Shown piece after piece: positions 5,444-18,985 of a stretch of DNA of 64,000 nucleotides. Source of the DNA: an uncultured Croceitalea sp. (GTDB lineage: Bacteria; Bacteroidota; Bacteroidia; Flavobacteriales; Flavobacteriaceae). The position numbers and the translations under genes are program-made. Below the pieces are notes generated by a model. The model worked only from the letters and a program-made list of their open reading frames with translations, made no database searches and had not been told where the DNA came from. Location of the stretch: assembly GCA_947495075.1 (NCBI GenBank), contig CANLXH010000001.1, positions 992,001-1,056,000 on the forward strand, in the 5' to 3' direction. How positions within the stretch are numbered: position 1 is the first letter of the stretch; every line of letters starts with the position of its first letter.

Positions 5444-6637
5444 ATGTTTAAAAAAATTGGACCAGGAATTTTAATTGCATCAGCCTTTATTGGACCAGGT
5501 ACTATCACAGCATGTACTTTAGCTGGCGTAGGGTTTGGCTATGCTTTATTATGGGCCATGTTGCTATCAATTTTGGCTACCATGGTTTTGCAGGAAATGA
5601 CAGCTCGTTTAGGAGTAATATCTCAAAAAGGATTAGCACACAACATTAAACAACAATTAAAGGTAAGATGGTTAAGGGTATTTGTTTTAACGATTATTCT
5701 CGGAGCTATTTTAGTTGGTAATGCTGCTTATGAAGCTGGCAATATTGGTGGAGCCACCCTAGGTTTAGTAGCCTTGTTTGGAGAAAGTTATTCAAATTAT
5801 TATCCTTTCTTAGTTGGTTTTTTAGCATCAGTATTATTATTAATAGGTAGTTACAGAATACTTGAGAAAGTATTTATGGGGTTAATTTTTTTAATGAGTA
5901 TTTCATTTTTAATTACAGCAATACTTACCAAACCAGATGTATTAGAAGTTTTAAGGGGATTATTTATACCTTCTTTTCCAAGAGATAGTGTTTTAACAAT
6001 TATAGCTTTAGTGGGAACAACCGTTGTTCCGTACAATTTGTTTCTTCATGCTTCCCTTGTAAACGAAAAATGGAAATCTAAGGATAACTTAAAAGCTGCA
6101 AGAGTAGATACGATGGTTTCTATTAGCATAGGAGGTATTGTATCTATGGCAATAGTTATCGCCGCTACGGCAATTCCTTCTAAAGAAATTACAGGGGCTT
6201 TAGATTTGGCTAAAGGATTAGAACCTTTATTTGGAAATACTGCTCGATATTTTATGGGGATAGGTCTCTTCGCTGCAGGAATTACATCATCTATAACTGC
6301 ACCTTTAGCTGCAGCATATGTTGCTAATAGCTGTTTTGGTTGGAACGTTGGGTTAAAAGATTGGAAATTTCGTTTAGTATGGTTAACTATCTTAATTATT
6401 GGAGTTTTTAGTTTATCGTTTAAAATTAAGCCTATCCAAATTATTCAATTTGCACAAATAGCTAATGGAATGTTGCTTCCAGTAATTGCAATTCTTTTAG
6501 TATGGATTGTGAATAAGAAAAACGTGATGGGAAAATATAAAAATACATTTCTACAAAATGTTATTGGATTTTTAATAGTTAGTTTGTCAATATTTCTTGG
6601 TCTAAAAAGTATTTTTAAGGTTTTAGGGATTTTGTAA
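5444..6637 (+). CDS. Nramp-family transporter lacking the metal-binding residues (YcsG-like)
   Basis: 397 residues with about 11 hydrophobic segments and overall Nramp (SLC11) sequence. The canonical metal ligands are absent: the TM1 motif DPGN reads GPGT (17-20), and the TM6 motif (usually MPHN) reads VVPYN (194-198), so Asp, Asn and Met are all replaced. The stop abuts the pxpA start (TAAATG), so the genes are translationally linked. Bacillus subtilis has the same neighbourhood, with ycsG (Nramp-like) beside ycsF (pxpA). The likely role is uptake of 5-oxoproline or a related organic acid for the downstream enzymes, rather than Mn or Fe uptake. The fold is seen from sequence; the substrate is inferred from context. 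Confidence 0.85.
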   Translation: MFKKIGPGILIASAFIGPGTITACTLAGVGFGYALLWAMLLSILATMVLQEMTARLGVISQKGLAHNIKQQLKVRWLRVFVLTIILGAILVGNAAYEAGNIGGATLGLVALFGESYSNYYPFLVGFLASVLLLIGSYRILEKVFMGLIFLMSISFLITAILTKPDVLEVLRGLFIPSFPRDSVLTIIALVGTTVVPYNLFLHASLVNEKWKSKDNLKAARVDTMVSISIGGIVSMAIVIAATAIPSKEITGALDLAKGLEPLFGNTARYFMGIGLFAAGITSSITAPLAAAYVANSCFGWNVGLKDWKFRLVWLTILIIGVFSLSFKIKPIQIIQFAQIANGMLLPVIAILLVWIVNKKNVMGKYKNTFLQNVIGFLIVSLSIFLGLKSIFKVLGIL

Positions 6638-7381
6638 ATGAAATTGAAGTCAATAGATATTAATTGTGATGTAGGAGAGGGGATAGGTAACGAATCTCGA
6701 TTATTTCCACTTATATCTTCATGCAATATTGCGTGCGGGGGTCATGCTGGTACTAAAAAGACAATACTAGAAATAGCTTTATTGGCGAAAAAAAACAATG
6801 TGAAAGTTGGAGCTCATCCAAGTTATCCGGATAAAAATAATTTTGGAAGAGTTGTGCTTGATATGTCTAAAAAAGAGCTCTGTGAAAGTATTAAATATCA
6901 GTTGAAAACTTTTCAACAAGTAATATCCTTAAAAGGAGTTAAAATTCATCACATAAAACCTCATGGGGCTTTGTATAATCAAATAGCTATAGATATTGAA
7001 GTTGCGGATACATTTTTAAAAGCGATAAGCCAATATAAGGATAAAGTATTTTTATATGTTCCTTATAACTCGGTAATTGAAAGAGAAGCAAAGAAAAAAG
7101 GTTTTAAAATTATATATGAAGCGTTTTGCGATAGAAACTATAATAATGATTTAACTTTAGTTTCTAGAAGTAAGAATAAGGCATTAATAACTAGACCTAA
7201 AGCCGTTTTGGATCATGTTTTACAAATGCTCAAAAAACAAACCGTGAAAACAATTTCAGGAGAATCTAGAAAAATTTTTGCAGATACATTTTGCATTCAT
7301 GGGGATAGTACTAATGCAATTGAAATATTAACGTATCTTTCTACAGAGTTACCTAAAAATGGTATCCGAATAAGCAAGTGA
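6638..7381 (+). CDS. pxpA: 5-oxoprolinase subunit A (LamB/YcsF family)
   Basis: 247 residues with the LamB/YcsF signatures 'INCDVGEG', 'SCNIACGGHAG' and 'VGAHPSYPDKNNFGR'. With PxpB and PxpC it forms the prokaryotic ATP-dependent 5-oxoprolinase, which opens cytosolic 5-oxoproline to glutamate. It starts directly after the transporter stop codon, and its TGA overlaps the GTG start of pxpB, so the four genes form one tight operon. Length and motifs are normal. Confidence 0.93.
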   Translation: MKLKSIDINCDVGEGIGNESRLFPLISSCNIACGGHAGTKKTILEIALLAKKNNVKVGAHPSYPDKNNFGRVVLDMSKKELCESIKYQLKTFQQVISLKGVKIHHIKPHGALYNQIAIDIEVADTFLKAISQYKDKVFLYVPYNSVIEREAKKKGFKIIYEAFCDRNYNNDLTLVSRSKNKALITRPKAVLDHVLQMLKKQTVKTISGESRKIFADTFCIHGDSTNAIEILTYLSTELPKNGIRISK

Positions 7382-8109
7382 AAAAATTCCCCATAACATT
7401 CAAAAATTTTGGTAAAAGTTCCATTCTCGTAGAATGGCCTAATGAAGTTAAAGAAGAAATCCTTACAGACATTATTCGATTCAAAGCTATTTTAAAAACC
7501 GAATTAAATACTGATTTTGAATTAGTGCCAGCTTATAATTCTTTAGCAATCATTGATAATACTAAAAGCGTTAATTTAAGTAAGCTTGAAAGCAAGTTGT
7601 TTAGCTTATACACAAAACAAACTAGTATTGAAAAGCATAAAAGGACTCTTTGGAAATTACCTGTTTGTTATGACAGTGAGTTTGGTATTGATTTAGAGGA
7701 AGTTGCCCAAAATTTAAAGATTACAACTTCAGATTTAATTAAAATGCATACAAGCCATCAATATACTGTATACGGTATAGGATTTCTTCCCGGCTTTATG
7801 TACTTAGGTGGATTACCAAAAAAAATGGAGACCAAACGAAGAAGTACACCTAGATTAAATGTTGAAAAAGGAGCTGTAGGCTTAGCTGGTGAACAGACAG
7901 GGGTATATCCGCAAGAATCACCAGGAGGATGGAACATCATTGGCAATTGCCCCATACCAATGTTTAACGTTAAGAGTAAGGAACCTTGTTTTGTGAGTGT
8001 TGGAGACAAAATAAAATTTGAACCTATTACACGGGCAGAATATGAACTTCATAAAATACAAGGAGAAGTAGGAATTTATAAACCAGAAAAAACGTTCTTA
8101 GATGCTTAA
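7378..8109 (+). CDS. pxpB: 5-oxoprolinase subunit B (KipI-like)
   Basis: 243 residues starting at a GTG that overlaps the pxpA stop (GTGA). It has the PxpB/KipI carboxyltransferase-type fold, seen in 'YTVYGIGFLPGFMYLGGLP', 'RRSTPRLNVEKGAVGLAGEQ' and 'ESPGGWNIIGNCP'. It pairs with PxpC as the ATP-using part of 5-oxoprolinase. In Bacillus the homologue KipI was first described as an inhibitor of the sporulation kinase KinA. Here the complete pxpABC set argues for the metabolic role. It overlaps pxpC by 8 bases. Confidence 0.92.
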   Translation: MKKFPITFKNFGKSSILVEWPNEVKEEILTDIIRFKAILKTELNTDFELVPAYNSLAIIDNTKSVNLSKLESKLFSLYTKQTSIEKHKRTLWKLPVCYDSEFGIDLEEVAQNLKITTSDLIKMHTSHQYTVYGIGFLPGFMYLGGLPKKMETKRRSTPRLNVEKGAVGLAGEQTGVYPQESPGGWNIIGNCPIPMFNVKSKEPCFVSVGDKIKFEPITRAEYELHKIQGEVGIYKPEKTFLDA

Positions 8110-8941
8110 AGTTTTAAAGCCTGGTTTTTTTACTACGGTTCAAGATAATGGAAGGTTTGGATATAGAGACAAAGGAGTTCCTGTCTCTGGTGCTATGGAT
8201 ATGGGTTCTGTTTCTAGAGTTAACACACTGCTTGAAAATGATTCTAACGCTGCTGTTTTAGAAATCACAATGACTGGGCCTACGTTACTTTTTGAAAGTA
8301 ACACTTATATAGCTTTGGCCGGGGCTTGGTTATCGCCGACTCTTAACAATGAACCAATCTACAATTATAAAGTTTATAAAGTTGAAAAGGGAGATATTTT
8401 ATCTTACGGGAAGTTAGAAAAAGGTTTTAGAAGTTATCTGGCAGTAAAAAATGGTTTTAAAAGTGATACTGTTCTAGGAAGTAAATCACAGTATTTTCCA
8501 ATTACAGAAACTAAATGCATTTCAGAATTACAAGAGATAGATTTTGATGAAACAACTTCATTCAAACCTAAAATATCTGAATTAAAAATGGACACTTATT
8601 TAGATTTCAACTTTTTGGAAGTTGAAAAGGGTCCTGAATATGATATGCTAGGTGACAATCAATTAGTCGAACTATTTTCAAAAGAATTTACGGTTTCTAA
8701 GGAAAACAATAGAATGGCTTACCAGATGAATGAAAAAATTCTTGGCCATGAAAAAACAATATTAACATCTGCTACTCAGCCTGGTACAGTCCAGTTTACT
8801 CCAGCAGGTAGATTAATTGTTCTTATGAAAGACGGCCAAACTACGGGAGGATACCCTAGAATACTTCAACTAACAGAAGAAGCTATTTGTGTTTTAGCAC
8901 AAAAAAGGTCTACGGATTCGGTTACGTTCACACTAGTCTAG
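8102..8941 (+). CDS. pxpC: 5-oxoprolinase subunit C (KipA-like biotin-dependent carboxyltransferase domain)
   Basis: 279 residues. PxpC/KipA motifs are 'GFFTTVQDNGRFGYRDKGVPVSGAMD' (begins near residue 8, longer than shown families' minimum) and 'DGQTTGGYPRI' near the C-terminus. It completes the PxpABC complex. The ATG lies inside pxpB (8-base overlap), typical of subunits made in equal amounts. Its 3' end overlaps that of the convergent nitroreductase by 4 bases, so no terminator fits between the two operons. Confidence 0.92.
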   Translation: MLKVLKPGFFTTVQDNGRFGYRDKGVPVSGAMDMGSVSRVNTLLENDSNAAVLEITMTGPTLLFESNTYIALAGAWLSPTLNNEPIYNYKVYKVEKGDILSYGKLEKGFRSYLAVKNGFKSDTVLGSKSQYFPITETKCISELQEIDFDETTSFKPKISELKMDTYLDFNFLEVEKGPEYDMLGDNQLVELFSKEFTVSKENNRMAYQMNEKILGHEKTILTSATQPGTVQFTPAGRLIVLMKDGQTTGGYPRILQLTEEAICVLAQKRSTDSVTFTLV

Positions 8942-9666
8942 ATTTTAAAATAAACTTCATTAAACGGAATTCGAAAACGTTCACCATAAACTCCATTATC
9001 ATCTCTTATACCACAACCAATTACCATGTTAATTTCAGCACCCCTAGGTAATTTTAATATTCTTTTTATTCGAAGCGTATCACTACCCTCCATAGGACAA
9101 GTATCATATCCTATTGATGCCATACTAATCATAAAATTTTGAGCGGCCAGTCCAGCACTTTTATGAGCTACAATACGCATATCTGACTTTCTAACCTGGC
9201 GATAAATAGGTTTAGATAGACCTATAATTTGAAAAACTAAATACTTCAACCATCCTAATATTCCTAAAAAATCCGTATAAATCGTTGGTATTAACTTCTC
9301 GTAATACCTTAATGTAAATTTTTCTCTCTTGGTATATTCAGATTTTGGTTTGTTATTTAATGTACTTTTTAAAAATTCAATGTTTGACTTTGCTCTTTTA
9401 CTCCAGAGGTCTTTTCTGACCACAATAGCAACCATTTGTTTAGAATACTTTGCAGCATTTTGCCCTAGGCAAGCCTTTGTTATTTCAGTAAGTATTTCTT
9501 TATCCGTTATGTGGTAGAATTCCCAGAGTTGAAGATTACTACTAGTAGGAGCTAATACTGCATTTTTAATACATGTTTCTACCTTTTTGGTGTCAAGCTC
9601 TATATCTTCTTTGAAAACTCGTATAGAGCGTCTGTAATTAATTGCTTCAGTTACTGTTTTTTCCAT
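8938..9666 (-). CDS. Nitroreductase-family flavoprotein
   Basis: 242 residues. The N-terminal 'EAINYRRSIRVF' is the FMN-phosphate-binding RRS-x-R motif of nitroreductases, followed by 'APTSSNLQLWEF'. The C-terminal part has 'GYDTCPMEGSD', 'KRILKLPRGAEINMVIGCG' and 'YGERFRIPF', as in NAD(P)H:FMN nitroreductases. The middle (about 95-150) is longer than in the minimal NfsB type and partly hydrophobic. The physiological substrate cannot be predicted. It is a single leftward gene between two rightward operons. Confidence 0.87.
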   Translation of the reverse strand: MEKTVTEAINYRRSIRVFKEDIELDTKKVETCIKNAVLAPTSSNLQLWEFYHITDKEILTEITKACLGQNAAKYSKQMVAIVVRKDLWSKRAKSNIEFLKSTLNNKPKSEYTKREKFTLRYYEKLIPTIYTDFLGILGWLKYLVFQIIGLSKPIYRQVRKSDMRIVAHKSAGLAAQNFMISMASIGYDTCPMEGSDTLRIKRILKLPRGAEINMVIGCGIRDDNGVYGERFRIPFNEVYFKI

Positions 9667-9729
9667 AGGTGATAAAGATATTATATGTTATTGATTTGAT
9701 TTTAATTAAATTTTTAGTAATCTTGGAGT

Positions 9730-9786
9730 ATGCAAAAGCAAATATTCAATAACAATATTGTCATTATTATTCCAGATATGGAGTGA
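9730..9786 (+). CDS. Ile/Val-rich leader peptide of the ilv operon
   Basis: An 18-codon frame, ATG at 9730 and TGA at 9784-9786, encodes MQKQIFNNNIVIIIPDME. Six of 18 residues are Ile or Val, five of them consecutive (ATT GTC ATT ATT ATT, 9757-9771). It lies directly before a strong rho-independent terminator and 248 bases before ilvD. This is the classical design of a branched-chain amino acid attenuator: a ribosome stalled at the Ile/Val codons exposes the antiterminator. A GGAG lies just before the ATG with very short spacing. A TTG-(19)-TAATCTTG promoter-like pair (9696-9725) would start transcription almost at the ATG, so either the leader is leaderless or the real promoter lies upstream. 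Confidence 0.7.
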   Translation: MQKQIFNNNIVIIIPDME

Positions 9787-9819
9787 TACGGACTTTAATT
9801 GTTGAAAAAAGCCTGTATC
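9785..9819 (+). promoter_or_regulatory. Predicted antiterminator of the ilv attenuator
   Basis: GATACGG (9785-9791), overlapping the leader stop codon, can pair with CTGTATC (9813-9819), which is the left arm of the terminator (six Watson-Crick pairs and one G-U). A ribosome stalled at 9757-9771 leaves GATACGG free, so the terminator cannot form. A ribosome that reaches the stop codon covers it, and the terminator forms. Pairing was worked out by hand. Confidence 0.55.
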
Positions 9820-9840
9820 TAAATGATACAGGCTTTTTTT
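9811..9840 (+). terminator. Rho-independent terminator (ilv attenuator)
   Basis: Perfect 9-bp stem GCCTGTATC / GATACAGGC (9811-9819 and 9825-9833), loop TAAAT, then seven T. Six A precede the stem, so it could also act leftward. No complete gene on this strand lies between pxpC and this site except the leader peptide, which supports a role in attenuation. The following 194 bases up to ilvD (9841-10034) are AT-rich and show nothing else recognisable. Confidence 0.9.
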
Positions 9841-10034
9841 ATGCTTTGATTTGAACTAAATGGATATGGTATTTTAAATTGATTTAAATATATGATAATC
9901 AATATTTTAGATAAATTATTTTTTAAATGAATTTAGAACATATAGAACTGTTAAAATATTGAGGTATTTGAAACAATTATTTTTGAGTGTCAAAGTATTT
10001 TCAATGCTTTTATTCAATTTGAAAGATTTTTTTA

Positions 10035-11711
10035 ATGGAATTAAATAAATACAGTAAAAATGTTACTCAAGATTCAACGCAACCAGCTGCGCAGGCAATG
10101 CTTTATGCAATTGGTTTAAACGAAGAAGACCTTAAAAAACCATTAATTGGTATTGGTAGTACTGGTTATGAGGGGAATCCTTGTAATATGCATTTGAATG
10201 ATTTGGCTCTAGAAGTTAAAAAAGGTGTAAACGATAGTGGTTCTGTTGGTTTAATTTTTAATACAATTGGTGTTAGTGATGGTATTTCAATGGGTACTTA
10301 TGGCATGCGTTATTCTCTTCCCTCTAGAGACATTATCGCAGATTCTATGGAAACTGTTGTGCAAGCAATGAATTATGATGGTTTGGTTACTGTAGTTGGT
10401 TGTGATAAAAATATGCCAGGTGCTTTAATGGCTATGATTCGTTTAAATAGACCCTCTGTTTTAGTTTATGGAGGAACTATAGCTTCTGGTTGTTTTAAGG
10501 ATAAAAAACTGGATGTGGTATCTGCTTTTGAAGCATGGGGAGAAAAAGTAGCTGGAACAATGGATGAAGCTGATTATAAAGGAGTTATACAGAATGCTTG
10601 CCCTGGTGCAGGAGCATGTGGTGGTATGTATACAGCAAATACTATGGCTTCTGCTATTGAAGCATTAGGCATGGCGATACCGTATAATTCTTCTAACCCT
10701 GCCATTGGTAAGCCAAAACAGAATGATGCTATTGCGTCTGGAAAAGCCCTAAGAGTATTGCTAGAAAAAGATATAAAGCCTAGTGATATTATCTCTAGAA
10801 AGTCTTTAGAAAATGCGGTTAGACTATTAACGCTTTTGGGAGGTTCAACAAATGCAGTATTACATTTTCTTGCTATAGCAAAAGCCGCAGAAGTCGAATT
10901 TACTTTAGATGATTTTCAAAGAATAAGTGATACTACACCATTTTTAGCAGATTTAAAACCTAGTGGTAAATTTTTAATGGAAGATGTGCATCGTGTTGGA
11001 GGGATTCCTGCAGTTATGAAATTTATGCTTGAGAACGGAATGTTACATGGAGATTGTTTAACGGTAACAGGCAAAACCATCGCTGAAAATCTTGAAGAAA
11101 TCCCTAGTCTTTTAAAGAGTCAAAAAGTTATTAAGCCTTTAAATGAGCCAATTAAAGAAACAGGTCATTTAAGAATTTTATATGGTAATCTAGCAGAAAA
11201 GGGTGCAGTTGCCAAAATCACGGGTAAGGAAGGATTGTATTTTTCTGGTCCTGCTAAAGTATATGATGATGAATTTTTAGCCAATGCAGGAATAGGTAAG
11301 GGTGAAGTGCAAAAAGGTGATGTTGTTGTTATTAGGTACGAGGGACCAAAAGGTGGCCCAGGAATGCCAGAAATGTTGAAACCGACTTCTGCAATAATGG
11401 GAGCAGGCTTAGGCAAAGACGTAGCTTTAATAACAGATGGTCGTTTTTCTGGTGGTACTCATGGTTTTGTCGTTGGACATGTATGCCCGGAAGCTCAAGA
11501 AGGAGGCTTAATAGGTCTTTTAAAGGATGGGGACTTAATTACAATTGATGCAGAAAAAAATAAGATATCAGTCGATTTATCCAATGAAGAAATTAAAACA
11601 AGAAAGGCTAGTTGGAAACGACCTTCTTTAAAAGTAAGTAAAGGAAGCTTGTATAAATACGCGAATATAGTATCATCTGCCTCTGAAGGATGCGTAACAG
11701 ATGAATTCTAG
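10035..11711 (+). CDS. ilvD: Dihydroxy-acid dehydratase
   Basis: 558 residues, normal for the IlvD/Edd family. It dehydrates 2,3-dihydroxy-isovalerate and -methylvalerate to the 2-oxoacids, the third common step of Ile/Val synthesis. Fe-S cluster cysteines lie in '[13 protein letters not shown]' and '[16 protein letters not shown]'; the C-terminal '[19 protein letters not shown]' is the family signature. It is the first gene of a seven-gene operon behind the leader/attenuator, and it overlaps ilvB by 11 bases if ilvB starts at 11701. Confidence 0.97.
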
Positions 11712-13461
11712 TAATAATAGGATAGAGATGGAAACATTAAAAGAAAGAAAGACAATCACTAAAAAAAATGAAGCAATAAAAATATCCGGAGCGGAGGCAA
11801 TTATTCATTGTCTACTAGCCGAAGGGGTAGATTTACTTTACGGTTATCCAGGTGGTGCTATAATGCCAGTATATGATGAACTCTATAAGTTTCAAGATAG
11901 ATTAACCCATATATTAACGCGTCATGAACAAGGAGCTACCCATGCAGCACAAGGATATGCTAGAGTTTCTGAGAAAGTAGGCGTTGCCATGGCAACTTCT
12001 GGACCGGGAGCAACAAACCTTGTAACCGGATTAGCAGATGCTCAAATAGATTCTACACCAATGGTTTGTATTACAGGTCAGGTACCAAGACACTTATTAG
12101 GTTCGGATGCTTTTCAAGAAACCGATATCATTGGGATTTCTACGCCAGTTACTAAGTGGAATTATCAGATTACTAAAGCTTCAGAAATCCCTGAGATTAT
12201 AGCCAAGGCGTTTTATATCGCTAAATCAGGACGACCAGGACCAGTATTAATAGATATTACTAAGAATGCACAATTTGATGAGTTTGAGTTTTCATACAAA
12301 AAGTGTGAAGCAGTAAGGAGTTACAATCCTACTCCAAAACCGAATATGGAGTTAATTAAAGCTGCTGGAAAACTAATTAATGAAGCAAAAAAGCCGTTGA
12401 TAGTTTGGGGACAAGGTGTTATACTAGGTAAAGCTGAAAAGGAACTAAAAGCTTTAGTAGAAAAGACAGGCATACCAGCAGCATGGACTATTATGGGAGC
12501 TTCAGCTTTAGAGACAGAACATCCATTAAACGTAGGAATGGTTGGGATGCACGGAAATTATGGACCTAATATCCTTACTAATGAGTGTGATGTTTTAATA
12601 GCCATTGGAATGCGGTTTGATGATCGTGTAACAGGCAGATTAGAGGATTATGCTAGACAAGCTAAAGTAATACACTTTGAGATAGACCCAGCAGAGATAA
12701 ATAAAAATGTTCATGCAGACATCCCTGTATTAGGAAACTCCAAAGAGACTTTAAGCTTACTATTACCACTTGTTAATTCTAATTCTCATGAGGCTTGGCA
12801 TAATGTTTTTAAAGAAAAATATCAGATAGAGTTTGATACTGTAATTAAAAAAGATATTCACCCCACCAAAGATGGTTTAACCATGGGGGAGGTAATTGAA
12901 GAAATAAATATAGCTACGGAACATAAAGCTGCGATAGTTACAGATGTGGGACAACATCAAATGATTGCCTGTAGGTATGCAAAATTTAAAGAAACTAAAA
13001 GCAATATTACTTCTGGAGGATTGGGAACGATGGGCTTTGCGTTACCCGCAGCAATTGGCGCTAAAATGGGTGCCATGGATAGGGAAGTGGTAGCGGTAAT
13101 TGGTGATGGCGGCTATCAGATGACCATCCAAGAGTTAGGTGTTATTTTCCAACATAATATTCCTGTAAAAATTGTTGTGTTAAACAATGACCATTTGGGT
13201 ATGGTTCGCCAATGGCAAGAGTTATTTTTTGATAAGCGCTACGCTTCAACAGTAATGGTAAATCCGGATTTTGTGAAAATTGCAGAAGGCTATCACATTG
13301 AAGCTAAATCTGTAAGTGAACGGAAAGATTTGAAAGCAGCTGTTCAAGAAATGATTGCTTCGGATAAACCATACTTCTTAGAAGTAAAAGTAGAAAAAGA
13401 GGATAATGTATTTCCGATGATTCCGTCTGGAGCTGCAGTATCAGAAATAAGATTAAAATAA
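11701..13461 (+). CDS. ilvB: Acetolactate synthase large (catalytic) subunit
   Basis: 586 residues, a three-domain ThDP enzyme. The catalytic Glu lies in '[16 protein letters not shown]'. The ThDP-Mg motif begins at '[11 protein letters not shown]' and ends near 'LNNDHLGM'. The FAD-binding middle domain is of normal length. It condenses pyruvate with pyruvate or 2-oxobutyrate, the first committed step. The start is ATG 11701 inside the ilvD end, or ATG 11728 nine codons later. Its regulatory partner ilvN is not adjacent: a methyltransferase gene lies between them. Confidence 0.96.
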
Positions 13462-13477
13462 AGAACAGTAGAATAGT

Positions 13478-14059
13478 ATGGAAGATGAAAGCGTAATTGA
13501 TATTCCTGAAATATATTCTGAAATTAAGAGTAAATCTAAAGAGATAGGTTTTACAATGCCTTCAGATGTATATATAGGAACATTACTTAAGGTTTTAATA
13601 AGCTCTAAGCCCAATGCTCATCTTCTTGAACTTGGCACAGGAATAGGTCTGTCTTTATCATGGATGATTGATGGCATGGATGATTTTTCAAAACTAATAA
13701 CGGTAGACAACGATCCAAAATTGATTACGATTGCTAAACAGTACTTTGAAACTAATAGTCAAGTAGAAATTATCTGTCGTGACGCATCAGATTGGATTAG
13801 AGAATACAAAGGAGAAAAGTTTGACTTAGTTTTTGCGGATGCTTGGCCAGGTAAGTACAGTGAAATAGATGAAATTTTAGATTTAATTAAAATAGGTGGG
13901 TTCTATGTAATTGATGATATGAAGACACAGCCAAATTGGCCGAAAGGACATCAATTTCATGTAAATACTTTAGTGAGTTATTTAAAAAAAAGAGATGATT
14001 TTAATTTGACTAAAATGGATTGGTCAACAGGAGTAATATTGGCGGTAAAAATAAAATAG
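13478..14059 (+). CDS. Class I SAM-dependent methyltransferase inside the ilv operon
   Basis: 193 residues. The Rossmann-type SAM site shows ELGTGIG (51-57), the acidic residue after strand 2 in 'LITVDNDP' (D77), 'DLVFADAWPGKY' (116-127) and 'GGFYVIDDM' (140-148). The overall layout is like small O-methyltransferases. It sits 16 bases after ilvB and 12 before ilvN, so it is certainly co-transcribed, yet no Ile/Val step needs methylation. The substrate is unknown: a small-molecule acid or a protein are both possible. Confidence 0.82.
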   Translation: MEDESVIDIPEIYSEIKSKSKEIGFTMPSDVYIGTLLKVLISSKPNAHLLELGTGIGLSLSWMIDGMDDFSKLITVDNDPKLITIAKQYFETNSQVEIICRDASDWIREYKGEKFDLVFADAWPGKYSEIDEILDLIKIGGFYVIDDMKTQPNWPKGHQFHVNTLVSYLKKRDDFNLTKMDWSTGVILAVKIK

Positions 14060-14071
14060 ATTAAAAACGAT

Positions 14072-14602
14072 ATGGAAAACAATCAATGGTTCACAATATC
14101 GGTTTATTCCGAAAATAATGTTGGATTGCTTAATAGAATATCTGGAATATTCTTAAAGCGTCACATTAATATAGAAAGTTTAAATGTCTCAAAATCAGAA
14201 ATTGATAATGTTTCAAAATTCACTATAGTTATATATACAACTGATACTTGGGTACATAATATAGTGGGGCAAATAGAAAAACAAATTGAGGTAATTAAAG
14301 CATTTTATCATACGGATGATGAAACCATATATCAAGAGTCAGCGTTGTTCAAAATTGCTTCGGATTTACTATTCGACGAAAGACAGATTCAAAATATTAT
14401 AAAAGAGAGTAATGCTCAAATTGTTACTGTAGCGCGAGATTTTTTTGTTCTTGCTAAAAGTGGAAGACGATTTGAAATCGACGATATGTATGAGCAATTA
14501 AAACCATTTGGTATTATGCAATTTGTTCGCTCAGGCAGGATATCTGTTACAAAGGACGAAATGCAGATATCAGCATTACTTAGAGAATTCCAATACAACT
14601 AA
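14072..14602 (+). CDS. ilvN: Acetolactate synthase small (regulatory) subunit
   Basis: 176 residues. The N-terminal ACT domain begins '[21 protein letters not shown]' (about 7-27) and contains '[14 protein letters not shown]'. The C-terminal half ('[21 protein letters not shown]' region) matches the second ACT-like domain of IlvN/IlvH. It binds valine and controls IlvB. It is 12 bases after the methyltransferase and 35 before ilvC. Confidence 0.93.
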
Positions 14603-14637: not shown

Positions 14638-16110
14638 ATGGCAAATTATTTTAATACACTATCATTAAGAGACCAATTAACGCAGTTAGGAAAGTGCAGG
14701 TTTATGGAGTCTTCGGAATTTTCGGATGGTGTAACTGCTTTAAAAGGAAAAAAAATAGTTATCGTTGGTTGTGGTGCACAAGGATTAAACCAAGGTTTAA
14801 ATATGCGAGACTCTGGGCTAGATGTTTCCTATACACTTCGTGATGCTGCGATAAAAGAAAAAAGACAATCCTATAGTAATGCTACTGAAAATGGTTTTAC
14901 GGTAGGAACTTATAATGAGTTAATTCCAACAGCAGATGTTGTAATTAATTTAACGCCAGATAAACAACATACAGCTGTAGTAAGCGCAGTCATGCCTTTA
15001 ATGAAGAAAGGTGCTACATTGTCTTATTCTCATGGTTTTAATATCGTGGAAGAAGGTATGCAGATTCGGGAAGATTTAACTGTAATTATGGTAGCTCCAA
15101 AAAGCCCAGGTTCAGAAGTACGTGAGGAATATAAGAGAGGTTTTGGAGTTCCTACACTAATTGCTGTGCACCCGGAGAACGACCCAGAGGGAAAAGGTCT
15201 AGCAGAAGCAAAAGCCTATGCTGTTGGAACTGGAGGACATAGAGCAGGGGTGCTAATGTCTTCTTTTGTTGCTGAGGTAAAATCAGATTTAATGGGAGAA
15301 CAAACCATTCTTTGTGGTTTGCTGCAAACGGGTTCTATCCTATGCTTTGATAAAATGATGGAAAAAGGAATAGATGCAGGTTATGCTTCTAGACTTATCC
15401 AATATGGTTGGGAAACCATTACTGAGGGGATGAAATATGGTGGAATCACCAATATGATGGACCGTTTATCAAACCCTGCAAAAATTAAAGCATTTGAATT
15501 ATCAGAAGAATTAAAAAATATTATGCGTCCGCTTTTTCAAAAACATATGGATGATATCATGACTGGACATTTTTCCAAAACTATGATGGAAGACTGGGCT
15601 AATGATGATAAGAATCTATTAACATGGCGTGCAGCAACAGGAGAAACCGCTTTTGAAAAGACTCCGGCTGGTAACGACGAGATTAGCGAACAGGAATTCT
15701 ATGATAATGGTGTTTTAATGGTTGCAATGGTTAGGGCAGGCGTAGAGTTGGCTTTTGAATCGATGACAGAATCAGGAATTATTGCGGAATCAGCCTATTA
15801 TGAATCATTACATGAAACACCACTAATAGCGAATACCATTGCAAGAAAGAAGTTATTTGAAATGAATCGTGTGATTTCTGATACAGCAGAGTATGGTTGC
15901 TATTTATTTGACCATGCGTGTAAACCTTTATTAGCAGGGTTTATGAAAGACATAGATACTAATGTTATTGGTAAGCCTTTTAGTGTAAAAGACAACGGTG
16001 TTGACAATGTAAAGCTTATTGCAGTAAACAAGAAGTTACGTGAGCACCCTGTTGAGATAGTAGGTGCTAGACTTAGAGCTTCCATGACAGCGATGAAGCC
16101 TATTGTTTAG
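14638..16110 (+). CDS. ilvC: Ketol-acid reductoisomerase, class II
   Basis: 490 residues, the long (class II) form as in Escherichia coli. The N-terminal NADPH-binding Rossmann domain has '[20 protein letters not shown]' (begins near residue 40), followed by the knotted helical domain, duplicated in this class, with its Mg-binding acidic residues ('[15 protein letters not shown]'). It isomerises and reduces acetolactate and acetohydroxybutyrate with NADPH. The gapN at the end of this operon is a plausible NADPH source. Confidence 0.96.
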
Positions 16111-16115
16111 AATTG

Positions 16116-17381
16116 ATGAAAGAAACAGTTACAACATATTTTCCTAAGATTGCAGATATCTATCAGGCAGCAAAAACCATTCGTAAAGTTGCGAACCAAA
16201 CACCTTTGCAACAGAGTATTCGTTATTCAAAAAAATATGATGCTAATATTCTCCTTAAAAGAGAGGATTTACATAGGGTTCGTAGTTATAAAATACGAGG
16301 GGCTTTCAATAAAATTAGTTCACTCTCTAAACAAGAATTAAAAAATGGAGTGGTGTGCGCGAGTGCTGGGAATCATGCCCAAGGAGTTGCATTCGCCTGT
16401 AATCATTTAGGTGTTAAGGGAACTATTTATATGCCGGCTGTTACGCCTAAGCAGAAGGTTGACCAAACCGAGATGTTTGGAGGTGACTGGGTAGACATTG
16501 TTTTAGAAGGAGATACGTTTGATGATTCATATAAAGCTGCAATTGCTGCTTGTGATGCTGATAAAAAAATATTTGTCCATCCTTTTGATGATCCTAAAAC
16601 TATTGAAGGACAAGCTACTGTTGGACTAGAACTTTTGGAGCAGTCCGAAACTCAAATAGACTATGTGTTTGTTGCTGTAGGTGGTGGAGGTTTAGCATCA
16701 GGTTTATGTGGTACTTTCCAAGCCTTATCTCCTAATACTAAAATTATAGGTGTTGAGCCTTTAGGTGCCCCATCGATGAAGACTTCCATTGAAAAAGGAA
16801 TATTGGTAGAGCTTGATGAAATTGATAAGTTTATTGATGGCGCTGCGGTTCAAAAAGTAGGTAGTTATACTTTTTCTATCTGCAAAGAATACCTTCATAA
16901 AATTGAGACAGTAGATGAAGGTAAGGTCTGTCAAACAATTTTAGAACTATATAACAGAGATGCTATTGTAGTAGAACCTGCAGGAGCGCTTACCATCGCT
17001 ACTTTAGATACTTACAAAGAAGAAATAAAGGGGAAAAATGTTGTTTGCATTATAGGTGGTAGTAATAATGATATTACACGAACAGCTGAAATAAAGGAAC
17101 GAGCGTTGCTCTACAGTAAGTTAAAACACTATTTCATTATTCGTTTCCCACAGCGCCCTGGAGCGTTAAAAGAATTTGTTGCTGATATATTGGGTCCCAA
17201 TGATGATATTACGCATTTTGAGTATTCTAAAAAGTCCAGTAGAGAGAATGCTCCTGCAGTAGTTGGCATAGAGTTAAAATCCCCTGAAGACCTAGCTCCT
17301 CTCATCCATCGGATGAAAACAAATAGCTTTTTTGGCGACTATTTAAATGATAAACCTGACTTGTTTCAATACTTAATTTGA
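16116..17381 (+). CDS. ilvA: Threonine ammonia-lyase (threonine deaminase)
   Basis: 421 residues from ATG 16116; a TTG one codon earlier is possible but less likely. The PLP lysine lies in '[14 protein letters not shown]'. Other fold II motifs are '[13 protein letters not shown]' and the glycine-rich '[14 protein letters not shown]'. The C-terminal ~85 residues ('[16 protein letters not shown]') form a single ACT-like regulatory domain, as in the ~420-residue IlvA type. It makes 2-oxobutyrate for isoleucine synthesis and is placed directly after ilvC. Confidence 0.95.
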
Positions 17382-17404
17382 ACCGAAAATATAGGAAGAA
17401 ATAT

Positions 17405-18985
17405 ATGAATGCTATACCAAAAGAATTTCAAATTAAATCAGAAATTCATCATTCAACTTATCTGGTTAATGGTGAATTAAAAAAATGGAAAGGTAATACA
17501 ACCAAGGTAACCTCCACCATATCATCTACGGAAGATTATAAGCCAACAGTTTTAGGAAGCATTCCAGATATGGGAGAACCCGAAGCGCTGGAAGCACTAG
17601 ATGCTGCTTTAGCCGCTTATAATCAAGGACAAGGAGTATGGCCTACGATGAAGGTAAAAGACCGTATAGAATGTATGGAATCTTTTGTAAAAAAGATGAT
17701 TACCAAAAGAGATGAGGTTGTAAAATTACTAATGTGGGAAATAGGGAAATCTTTGCCAGATTCCCAAAAAGAATTTGATAGGACAGTTGAGTATATACAT
17801 GATACTATTGAAGATTACAAACAGTTAGATAGAGATTCTGCTAAGTTTCATAAATCAGGTGATGTATATGCCCATATTAGACGAGGGCCACTAGGTGTAG
17901 TGCTATGTCTTGGACCATATAATTACCCGTTAAATGAAACTTTTGCATTATTGATTCCAGCAATAATAATGGGTAATACCACTATTTTTAAACCAGCTAA
18001 ACATGGAGTTTTATTAATAACTCCTTTATTAGAAGCTTTTCAAAGCAGTTTTCCAAAGGGGGTGGTTAATATTCTATTTGGAAGGGGGAGAGCAGTAGCA
18101 GCTCCTATAATGAAAACAGGAAAAGTTGATGTACTTGCCCTAATTGGAAATAGTAAATCTGCTAATGCTTTACAAGAACAGCACCCAAAAAGTAATAGGC
18201 TTCGATTAGTCTTGGGATTAGAAGCGAAGAATCCAGCAATAATTCTACCAGATGCAGATTTAGATTTAACAATAAATGAAGTAATAGCAGGAACAACTTC
18301 TTTTAATGGACAAAGATGTACAGCCTTAAAAGTGGTGTATGTCCATGAAGATATTAAAGAAGAATTCCTAAAACGATTTTCAGAAAGAGTTGATGCTTTA
18401 AAATTCGGTAATCCATGGGAAGAAGGAGTAAAGCTTACACCACTTCCAGAACCAAGTAAACCCGCTTATATTCAAGAGCTAATAGATGATGCTTTAGCAA
18501 AAGGAGCAACTATCAAGAATAAAAAAGGAGGTATCCATTCAGATAATTATATCTGGCCTGCCGTATTATACCCGGTTTCTAAAGACATGCGGGTGTATGA
18601 AGAAGAACAATTTGGCCCAGTAATACCGGTACTTTCATTTAAGGACATAGAAGAGCCTTTGGATGATATGGCAGAATCAAATTATGGACAGCAGGTTAGC
18701 TTGTTTGGGAAAGATGTCTATACACTATCTCCTTTAATAGATACGTTAGCAAACCTGGTATGTAGAGTTAATTTGAATAGCTCTTGTCAGCGAGGTCCAG
18801 ATGTATATCCATTTACAGGAAGAAAAGACTCCGCACAGGCCACTTTAAGTGTTCACGATGCTTTGCGTTCTTTTTCGATTAGAACATTTGTAGCATTTAA
18901 AGACAATGAATTAAATAATGAAACTATAGAGCAGTTGCTAGATGCTAAAGTGAGTAATTTTTTAAGTACGGATTACATTTTATAG
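17405..18985 (+). CDS. gapN: NADP-dependent non-phosphorylating glyceraldehyde-3-phosphate dehydrogenase (aldehyde dehydrogenase family)
   Basis: 526 residues from ATG 17405; the frame extends nine codons upstream to a TTG overlapping the ilvA stop. ALDH motifs are '[10 protein letters not shown]', 'FKPAKHGVL', the Glu in '[18 protein letters not shown]', the catalytic Cys in '[11 protein letters not shown]', and '[13 protein letters not shown]'. The variant LGLEAKNP replaces the usual LGGK/LGGN motif but keeps the Glu. The GapN assignment is by overall resemblance; another NADP-linked aldehyde substrate cannot be excluded. As last gene of the ilv operon it could supply NADPH to IlvC. Confidence 0.78.

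Follow-up and report, generated by a model that had tools for sequence, protein, structure and literature searches.

A very probable ribosome-mediated attenuator ahead of the ilv genes of an uncultured Croceitalea sp., with a predicted leaderless leader peptide and relatives in the family

In the attenuators of the ilvGMEDA, thr, his and trp operons of Escherichia coli and Salmonella, a short leader ORF carries codons for the amino acid that the operon produces, its stop codon lies over strand 2 of the leader RNA, and the strands pair alternatively as 1:2, 2:3 or 3:4, the last being a terminator with a U-tract. The locus described here is similar to them in all of these points. Closer in phylogeny, PMC9723704 reports strong indications that amino-acid operons of Flavobacterium psychrophilum are preceded by leader-peptide attenuators, together with 5' elements (pheA, hisG and others) that are conserved in other genera. 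For Bacteroides thetaiotaomicron, the available part of PMC7366714 describes some long 5' UTRs that hold short ORFs reminiscent of attenuation leader peptides. Leaderless ilv leader peptides are found in Actinobacteria, namely ilvL of Streptomyces lividans (PMC8079986) and the ilvB leader of Corynebacterium diphtheriae (PMC5784534), both taken from excerpts of the papers. With leader-peptide attenuation reported in Flavobacterium and leaderless ilv leaders in Actinobacteria, the kind of control is already known. The main text of PMC2965389 mentions neither Bacteroid-, Flavobact-, ilv, Gramella nor Cytophaga, and the accessible main text of PMC8632094 neither Bacteroid- nor Flavobacter-. No study of ilv attenuation, or of leaderless or tandem attenuators, in Bacteroidota was among the literature matches listed; the subscription literature may contain cases.

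The window, by which we mean the whole stretch of 64,000 nucleotides analysed, contains the genes of isoleucine and valine synthesis in the following arrangement.

8938-9666, minus strand (opposite to the ilv genes): upstream gene of the nitroreductase family
10035-11711, plus strand: ilvD, first gene of the controlled operon
11701-13461, plus strand: ilvB
13478-14059, plus strand: O-methyltransferase-like gene (OMT), assigned by Pfam
14072-14602, plus strand: ilvN
14638-16110, plus strand: ilvC
16113-17381, plus strand: ilvA-type threonine dehydratase
17378-18985, plus strand: aldehyde dehydrogenase

Judged from the gene spacing, ilvD-ilvB-OMT-ilvN-ilvC-ilvA would form one operon. The OMT-like gene separates ilvB from ilvN, two genes that are usually neighbours. 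Positions 5444-8941 presumably hold, as named by eye, a Nramp-type transporter followed by three PxpA/PxpB/PxpC 5-oxoprolinase-like genes.

Ahead of ilvD the following elements of an attenuator were located.

9730-9786, plus strand: leader peptide ORF ilvL, with ATG at 9730-9732, 18 codons (MQKQIFNNNIVIIIPDME) and TGA at 9784-9786
9757-9771, plus strand: control codons ATT GTC ATT ATT ATT (Ile Val Ile Ile Ile), read from the sequence
9765-9774 with 9779-9788, plus strand: hairpin 1:2 of the minimum-energy fold
9785-9791 with 9813-9819, and 9793-9796 with 9808-9811, plus strand: antiterminator 2:3
9804-9840, plus strand: intrinsic terminator 3:4, core GCCTGTATC (9811-9819) with GATACAGGC (9825-9833)

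That the hairpin at 9804-9840 serves to end a gene further upstream is ruled out because the nitroreductase-family gene points away. An earlier note on this DNA had described an 18-residue leader with five successive Ile/Val codons, a 9-bp terminator at 9811-9833 followed by T7, and a competing antiterminator that starts at the leader stop codon. All three were borne out with exact coordinates, and A-U pairs were found to lengthen the terminator stem beyond its core to 9804-9840. The terminator loop is TAAAT (9820-9824) and T7 occupies 9834-9840. Two of the Ile codons (9766-9771) sit in the 5' strand of hairpin 1:2, and strand 2 of the antiterminator (9785-9791) begins within the stop codon; its pairing with 9813-9819 comprises 7 bp including one G-U (9790:9814). 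Folding of 9730-9845 gave -42.4 kcal/mol compared to -16.9 +/- 3.1 for shuffled sequences (z -8.2; 0 of 200 as good). Since the ilv genes downstream make isoleucine and valine, the control codons match the pathway. We consider it very likely that transcription of ilvD-ilvB-OMT-ilvN-ilvC-ilvA is controlled here by a ribosome-mediated attenuator which senses the charged forms of tRNA-Ile and tRNA-Val.

The proposed course of events is the following. RNA polymerase would start at an upstream promoter P1; the predicted first base, 9730, is the A of the leader ATG. A ribosome would initiate on the 5'-terminal AUG. With isoleucine or valine scarce, it would stall on 9757-9771 and cover strand 1 of hairpin 1:2, so that strand 2 would be free to pair with 9813-9819, the 5' arm of the terminator, permitting read-through into the six genes. 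With both amino acids ample, the ribosome at the stop codon would cover strand 2, the terminator would form and transcription would end. If the leader is not translated, hairpin 1:2 should likewise permit formation of the terminator. This switch was modelled with a 30-nt ribosome mask placed over the Ile codons or the stop codon, the transcript preceding the 3' arm of the terminator being folded. Masking the Ile codons yielded the predicted pairings 9785-9791:9813-9819 and 9793-9796:9808-9811 (-10.7 kcal/mol), while the antiterminator structure was lost with the mask on the stop codon. When the full-length RNA is folded, the terminator prevails in each of the three masked states, which is what a kinetic switch should show. 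The masked folding indicates that the switch is feasible and does not speak to its function; stalling, like the size of the regulation, is inferred.

A terminator with alternative folding ahead of ilv genes would also suit a T-box, which binds tRNA, or a metabolite riboswitch for branched-chain amino acids. Rfam, however, returned no match in the window at its curated cut-offs, and the list of 15 sub-threshold matches in 9650-10040 is led by Thr_leader and includes no T-box. The leader RNA is, in addition, about 110 nt long, with roughly half of it taken up by the ORF. We therefore rejected riboswitches of either type and attach next to no probability to them. The Thr_leader model (RF00506) scores 52 bits on 9752-9842, below its cut-off of 55, so that the locus is not assigned as a member; the reverse strand of the hairpin scores 33 bits to the same model, hence part of the similarity stems from the hairpin alone.

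To return to the attenuator, its conservation was investigated in the regions upstream of ilvD from the best 80 named genome contigs, 7 further genomes of the genus and 146 genomes of the family, together with the window. The family set derives from an ilvD match in 154 of 199 genomes, from which the own genome, one genus genome, matches at contig ends and unlisted ones were excluded. After removal of duplicates (L004, L005, L009) and of regions shorter than 250 nt, 231 regions including the window were scanned; L235 (1 nt), L237 (67 nt) and L089 (an ilvD fragment) never entered. To count as a unit, a terminator had to follow an ATG leader in which some stretch of 10 residues contains 6 or more Ile/Val/Leu. 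Such units occurred in 92 of the 231 distinct regions, two of which (L084 and L051) look spurious by eye, compared to 2 of 462 dinucleotide shuffles and 5 of 231 reverse strands. They are distributed over the window (1), the family set (62 of 146), the other genus genomes (2 of 7, with the spurious L084) and the genome contigs (27 of 77, with the spurious L051). Most of the 139 regions without a unit may be either true absences or cases of another gene order in which ilvD is not first.

For analyses of the units themselves, the threshold was relaxed to 5 in 10 to include L085, and L086, which has a GTG start, was added by hand, giving 108 units at 94 loci. Removal of L084, L051 and one extra unit at L053, all spurious by eye, left 105 units at 92 loci; the agreement with the 92 regions above is coincidental. 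The pairing tests also omit L020 and thus comprise 104 units.

Conservation among close relatives, on which the earlier reading had been made to depend, is given in part: Ile/Val/Leu leader frames are conserved and the stems covary, but a complete unit is present in just four of the eight genus genomes (own included, partly judged by eye), namely the window, L085, L086 and L087. The leaders of L087 (MITKNTLLNVVIIIPEMG) and L086 (VVKNTTNIINVIIIPEME, GTG start) differ from that of the window at the N-terminus and keep the 18 codons and the Ile/Val run. Neither leader nor terminator was found in L082, L083 and L088. In L084 the reverse strand carries, roughly 270 to 190 nt ahead of ilvD, a terminator-like hairpin in which no leader ORF precedes the stem, perhaps a decaying attenuator. 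Units also occurred in records labelled Saprospiraceae (L032, L040, L055), Sediminibacterium (L077), a genus of the Chitinophagaceae, and Ignavibacteriae (L029). The ilvD of L029 is 70% identical to that of the window and preceded by tandem leaders, pointing to a transfer or a mislabelled bin.

The units fall into two main types. In class A, to which the window belongs, the terminator is GCCTGTATC/GATACAGGC and TGA is usually followed by TACGG or similar; class B has GCCTTCC/GGAAGGC. The 104 units comprise 31 of class A, 55 of class B and 18 others, and the exact class A stem pattern CCTGTATC-N3-12-GATACAGG occurs at one place in the window's genome, the locus itself. In the 31 class A units, 97.9% of the terminator cells are paired and 5 pairs are changed on both sides. 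On four of five measures none of 500 shuffles was as good; the fifth, the number of pair types, did not exceed the shuffles (212 of 500). The class A antiterminator is paired in 96.8% of cells compared to 18-49% (maximum 48.8%) for slid versions. With one double change it is not clearly above column shuffles (31-33 of 500 on two measures, 197-202 of 500 on three), its weak covariation being due to the nearly invariant 3' strand.

Permutation of partners across classes is a stronger test of the antiterminator than the comparison within class A. With one representative for each of 28 distinct terminator cores, the own pairing amounted to -9.1 kcal/mol, compared to -6.8 +/- 0.4 for permuted partners (0 of 20,000 as good); in L192, for example, GATGCAG stands opposite CTGCATC. 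Five of the 28 representatives pair no better with their own partner than with strangers (L085 of the genus, L180, L216, the second unit of L029, and L077). For all 104 units, with relatedness left in, 0 of 10,000 permutations were as good, and the duplex energy compared to shuffled strand 2 lay at or below the 5% level in 54 of 106 units, two of them spurious. The compensatory changes that had been proposed as a check are thus present in the terminator, and the antiterminator partner tracks the terminator across the 28 cores. Leader frame, control codons, terminator, alternative pairing, their conservation and their covariation can be regarded as established at the level of sequence and its comparison.

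Attenuators of the same type precede two further operons of the genome. Upstream of trpE, a leader MKTINKNWWWINLRRIS with terminator lies 125 nt before the gene (L240); upstream of hisG on the reverse strand, a leader MRKQNIHHHIVTHA with terminator lies 153 nt before the gene (L239). Among the best 30 trpE loci from 60 family genomes (own included), a WW leader is present in 29, and in 28 of those it is accompanied by a terminator. The same numbers were obtained for HH leaders at the best 30 hisG loci (own included), hisG being present in 49 of the 60 genomes; both sets of counts stand without shuffle control. No unit was found in this genome upstream of a second anthranilate-synthase-like match or of three HMGL-like matches, leuA candidates included; the loci of both homoserine dehydrogenase matches ended short of the region upstream of the gene.

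These data also bear on an explanation in which translation plays no part, the hairpin being a constitutive premature terminator or the site of an RNA-binding protein, and the Ile-rich ORF a product of AT-rich sequence. Ile codons are indeed AT-rich, and translation of the leader is a prediction. Nevertheless, the dinucleotide-preserving shuffles yield such units far more rarely (2 of 462, compared to 92 of 231 regions), the ilv, trp and his operons of the genome each have a leader rich in the amino acid of their own pathway (Ile/Val, Trp, His), and strand 2 overlaps with the stop codon, a requirement of the ribosome model. We hold this explanation to be very improbable. The reading as a ribosome-mediated ilv attenuator, proposed in the earlier note, is supported by the leader frame, the conserved covarying structures and the trp and his attenuators of the same genome.

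How the leader would be translated is suggested by the putative promoter directly upstream.

9696-9725, plus strand: predicted promoter P1, with TTG at 9696-9698, 19 nt, and TAATCTTG at 9718-9725

The TTG element lies at -33, and its spacing is that of such promoters. The box TAATCTTG has one mismatch to TAnnTTTG and ends 4 nt before the leader ATG; the same gap was found in L087 and, despite its GTG start, in L086. As the flavobacterial sigma-A box TAnnTTTG lies at -12 to -5 in the available part of PMC9723704, the first transcribed base is predicted at 9730. A box at 3-6 nt before the start occurs in 11 of the 20 class A first leaders, compared to 0.45 expected and a maximum of 3 in 500 shuffles; in six of the 20, no box lies within 45 nt. 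Among the other 72 first leaders it occurs at 3-6 nt in 3 (1.4 expected) and at 7-12 nt in 11 (2.1 expected). The trp leader of the window's genome has TATATTTG 5 nt before its ATG, similar to the trp loci L248, L250 and L255, while most other trp and his leaders of the family show longer gaps. The remark that gene starts here probably work without a Shine-Dalgarno sequence proved a good lead, as the leader start coincides with the predicted start of transcription. The ilvL mRNA is accordingly predicted from the sequence to be leaderless, with translation from its first base. This would be unusual, since leaderless mRNAs make up 5.5% in F. psychrophilum in the part of PMC9723704 at hand.

Beyond the terminator a second promoter-like site and a conserved block were located.

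9860-9945, plus strand: conserved DNA block upstream of P2, with TTGAATATGRTA-like, TTGATnnTCA-like and TTGaaTTTAgA-like stretches
9950-9985, plus strand: predicted promoter P2, with GTTAAAA at 9950-9956, 21 nt, and TATTTTTG at 9978-9985; predicted +1 at about 9990

P2 was searched for as GTTAAAA with at most one mismatch, 17-24 nt and exact TAnnTTTG within the last 200 nt before ilvD. It was found in 12 of the 20 loci with a single class A unit, with the box 41-58 nt before ilvD, and in 19 of the 139 loci without unit, compared to 12 of 693 shuffles. It occurs in 1 of 59 loci with another single unit, 1 of 11 B-A tandem loci and 0 of 2 other tandem loci. L082 and L083 have it at the same position (-57) with the same 21-nt spacing. 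The stretches of the block hold fixed spacing in 32 aligned loci, which were chosen for carrying P2 or the block. A conserved RNA structure between terminator and ilvD was considered and rejected, as RNAalifold on these 32 chosen loci gave none (energy 0), and none for column shuffles either. The block is hence read as DNA, and its first motif alone, with 2 mismatches, occurs in 117 of 231 regions compared to 91 of 693 shuffles. By its sequence it is a candidate operator or upstream part of P2; an Lrp-like regulator as its ligand would be a guess.

A transcription start downstream of 9840 had been named as evidence against the attenuator. This objection holds in part, as a conserved predicted promoter is situated there; the attenuator probably governs only the part of ilv transcription that starts at P1. 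P2, whose activity is predicted, would probably give a basal or separately regulated supply untouched by attenuation. Leader and terminator might also be real and the operon yet be driven mainly by P2, with the attenuator as a partly redundant or decaying layer. The enrichment of P2 at single class A loci and at loci without unit, as well as its presence without attenuator (L082, L083) and without leader (L084), point in this direction. On the other hand, the window retains the whole attenuator (an intact frame, a strong terminator and the antiterminator), and the leaders of L086 and L087 retain length and Ile/Val run despite their differing N-termini. L088, which has no attenuator, lacks P2 as defined, and where the units are of another type or in tandem P2 hardly occurs (2 of 72 loci), so that it offers no bypass of attenuation there. 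We regard a mainly P2-driven operon as unlikely, though far less so than the explanations weighed above, and retain attenuation of the P1 transcripts as the preferred reading.

At 13 loci two leader-terminator units stand in series (L018, L021, L029, L038, L124, L142, L143, L149, L162, L174, L181, L183, L224). In 11 of these the first unit is not of class A and the second is; ten of the 11 first stems are of CCTTC type and that of L143 is a variant. Among the 13 second leaders, an exact box was found only at L183, 34 nt upstream, and two more have a one-mismatch box inside the T-tract of the first terminator. As the second leaders mostly have no box of their own, both units seem to be transcribed from a single promoter. 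Pairing of class A strands is poor with stems of class B (-4.4 kcal/mol compared to -8.9 within class A), whereas class B strands discriminate less (-6.3 kcal/mol with A, -7.7 with B).

From its position, the single class A unit of the window would descend from the second member of such a pair. A more comprehensive picture can be proposed tentatively, and we consider it somewhat doubtful as a whole. The leader start codon would be the first transcribed base throughout the clade, and binding of a ribosome to the bare 5' AUG on its emergence from the polymerase would make up for the missing Shine-Dalgarno sequence. In the family, the ilv region would go back to a two-stage arrangement, a GCCTTCC-type attenuator followed by a GCCTGTATC-type attenuator, the antiterminator strand of the second pairing poorly with the first stem. 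Lineages would have kept one or both, and the window the second, with a leaderless promoter of its own above the bypass promoter P2.

For the organism itself the finding amounts to ordinary amino-acid control. In a wider sense, covariation and controls show classical translation-coupled attenuation to be common in this family, in which most genes have no Shine-Dalgarno sequence; the prior literature found on attenuation in this family consists of brief reports. The family offers a clean setting for asking how, with no Shine-Dalgarno sequence, a ribosome loads on the leader in time to guide the polymerase, and raises the questions of how serial attenuators combine and what purpose a bypass promoter serves.

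In comparison to the attenuators of E. coli and Salmonella, the window belongs to another phylum, its translation start is predicted at the first transcribed base, and a promoter-like site follows downstream. The attenuators of F. psychrophilum (PMC9723704) come from the same family; 'ilv' is absent from the main text, and the sections consulted contain no covariation analysis. B. thetaiotaomicron (PMC7366714) belongs to the same phylum, but its example is a hypothetical protein gene, and 'ilv' is again absent from the main text. S. lividans and C. diphtheriae share the leaderless ilv leader peptide, situated upstream of ilvBHC or ilvB, and differ in phylum, promoter type and gene order; leaderlessness was mapped there, according to the excerpts available, and is predicted in the window. 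The ilvBNC attenuator of Corynebacterium glutamicum (PMC11857589) is similar as a branched-chain operon attenuator in a non-proteobacterium, a likeness by description and not by sequence. To these systems the present analysis adds the window as a member, the support by covariation, the predicted leaderless start, the downstream promoter and the tandem relatives.
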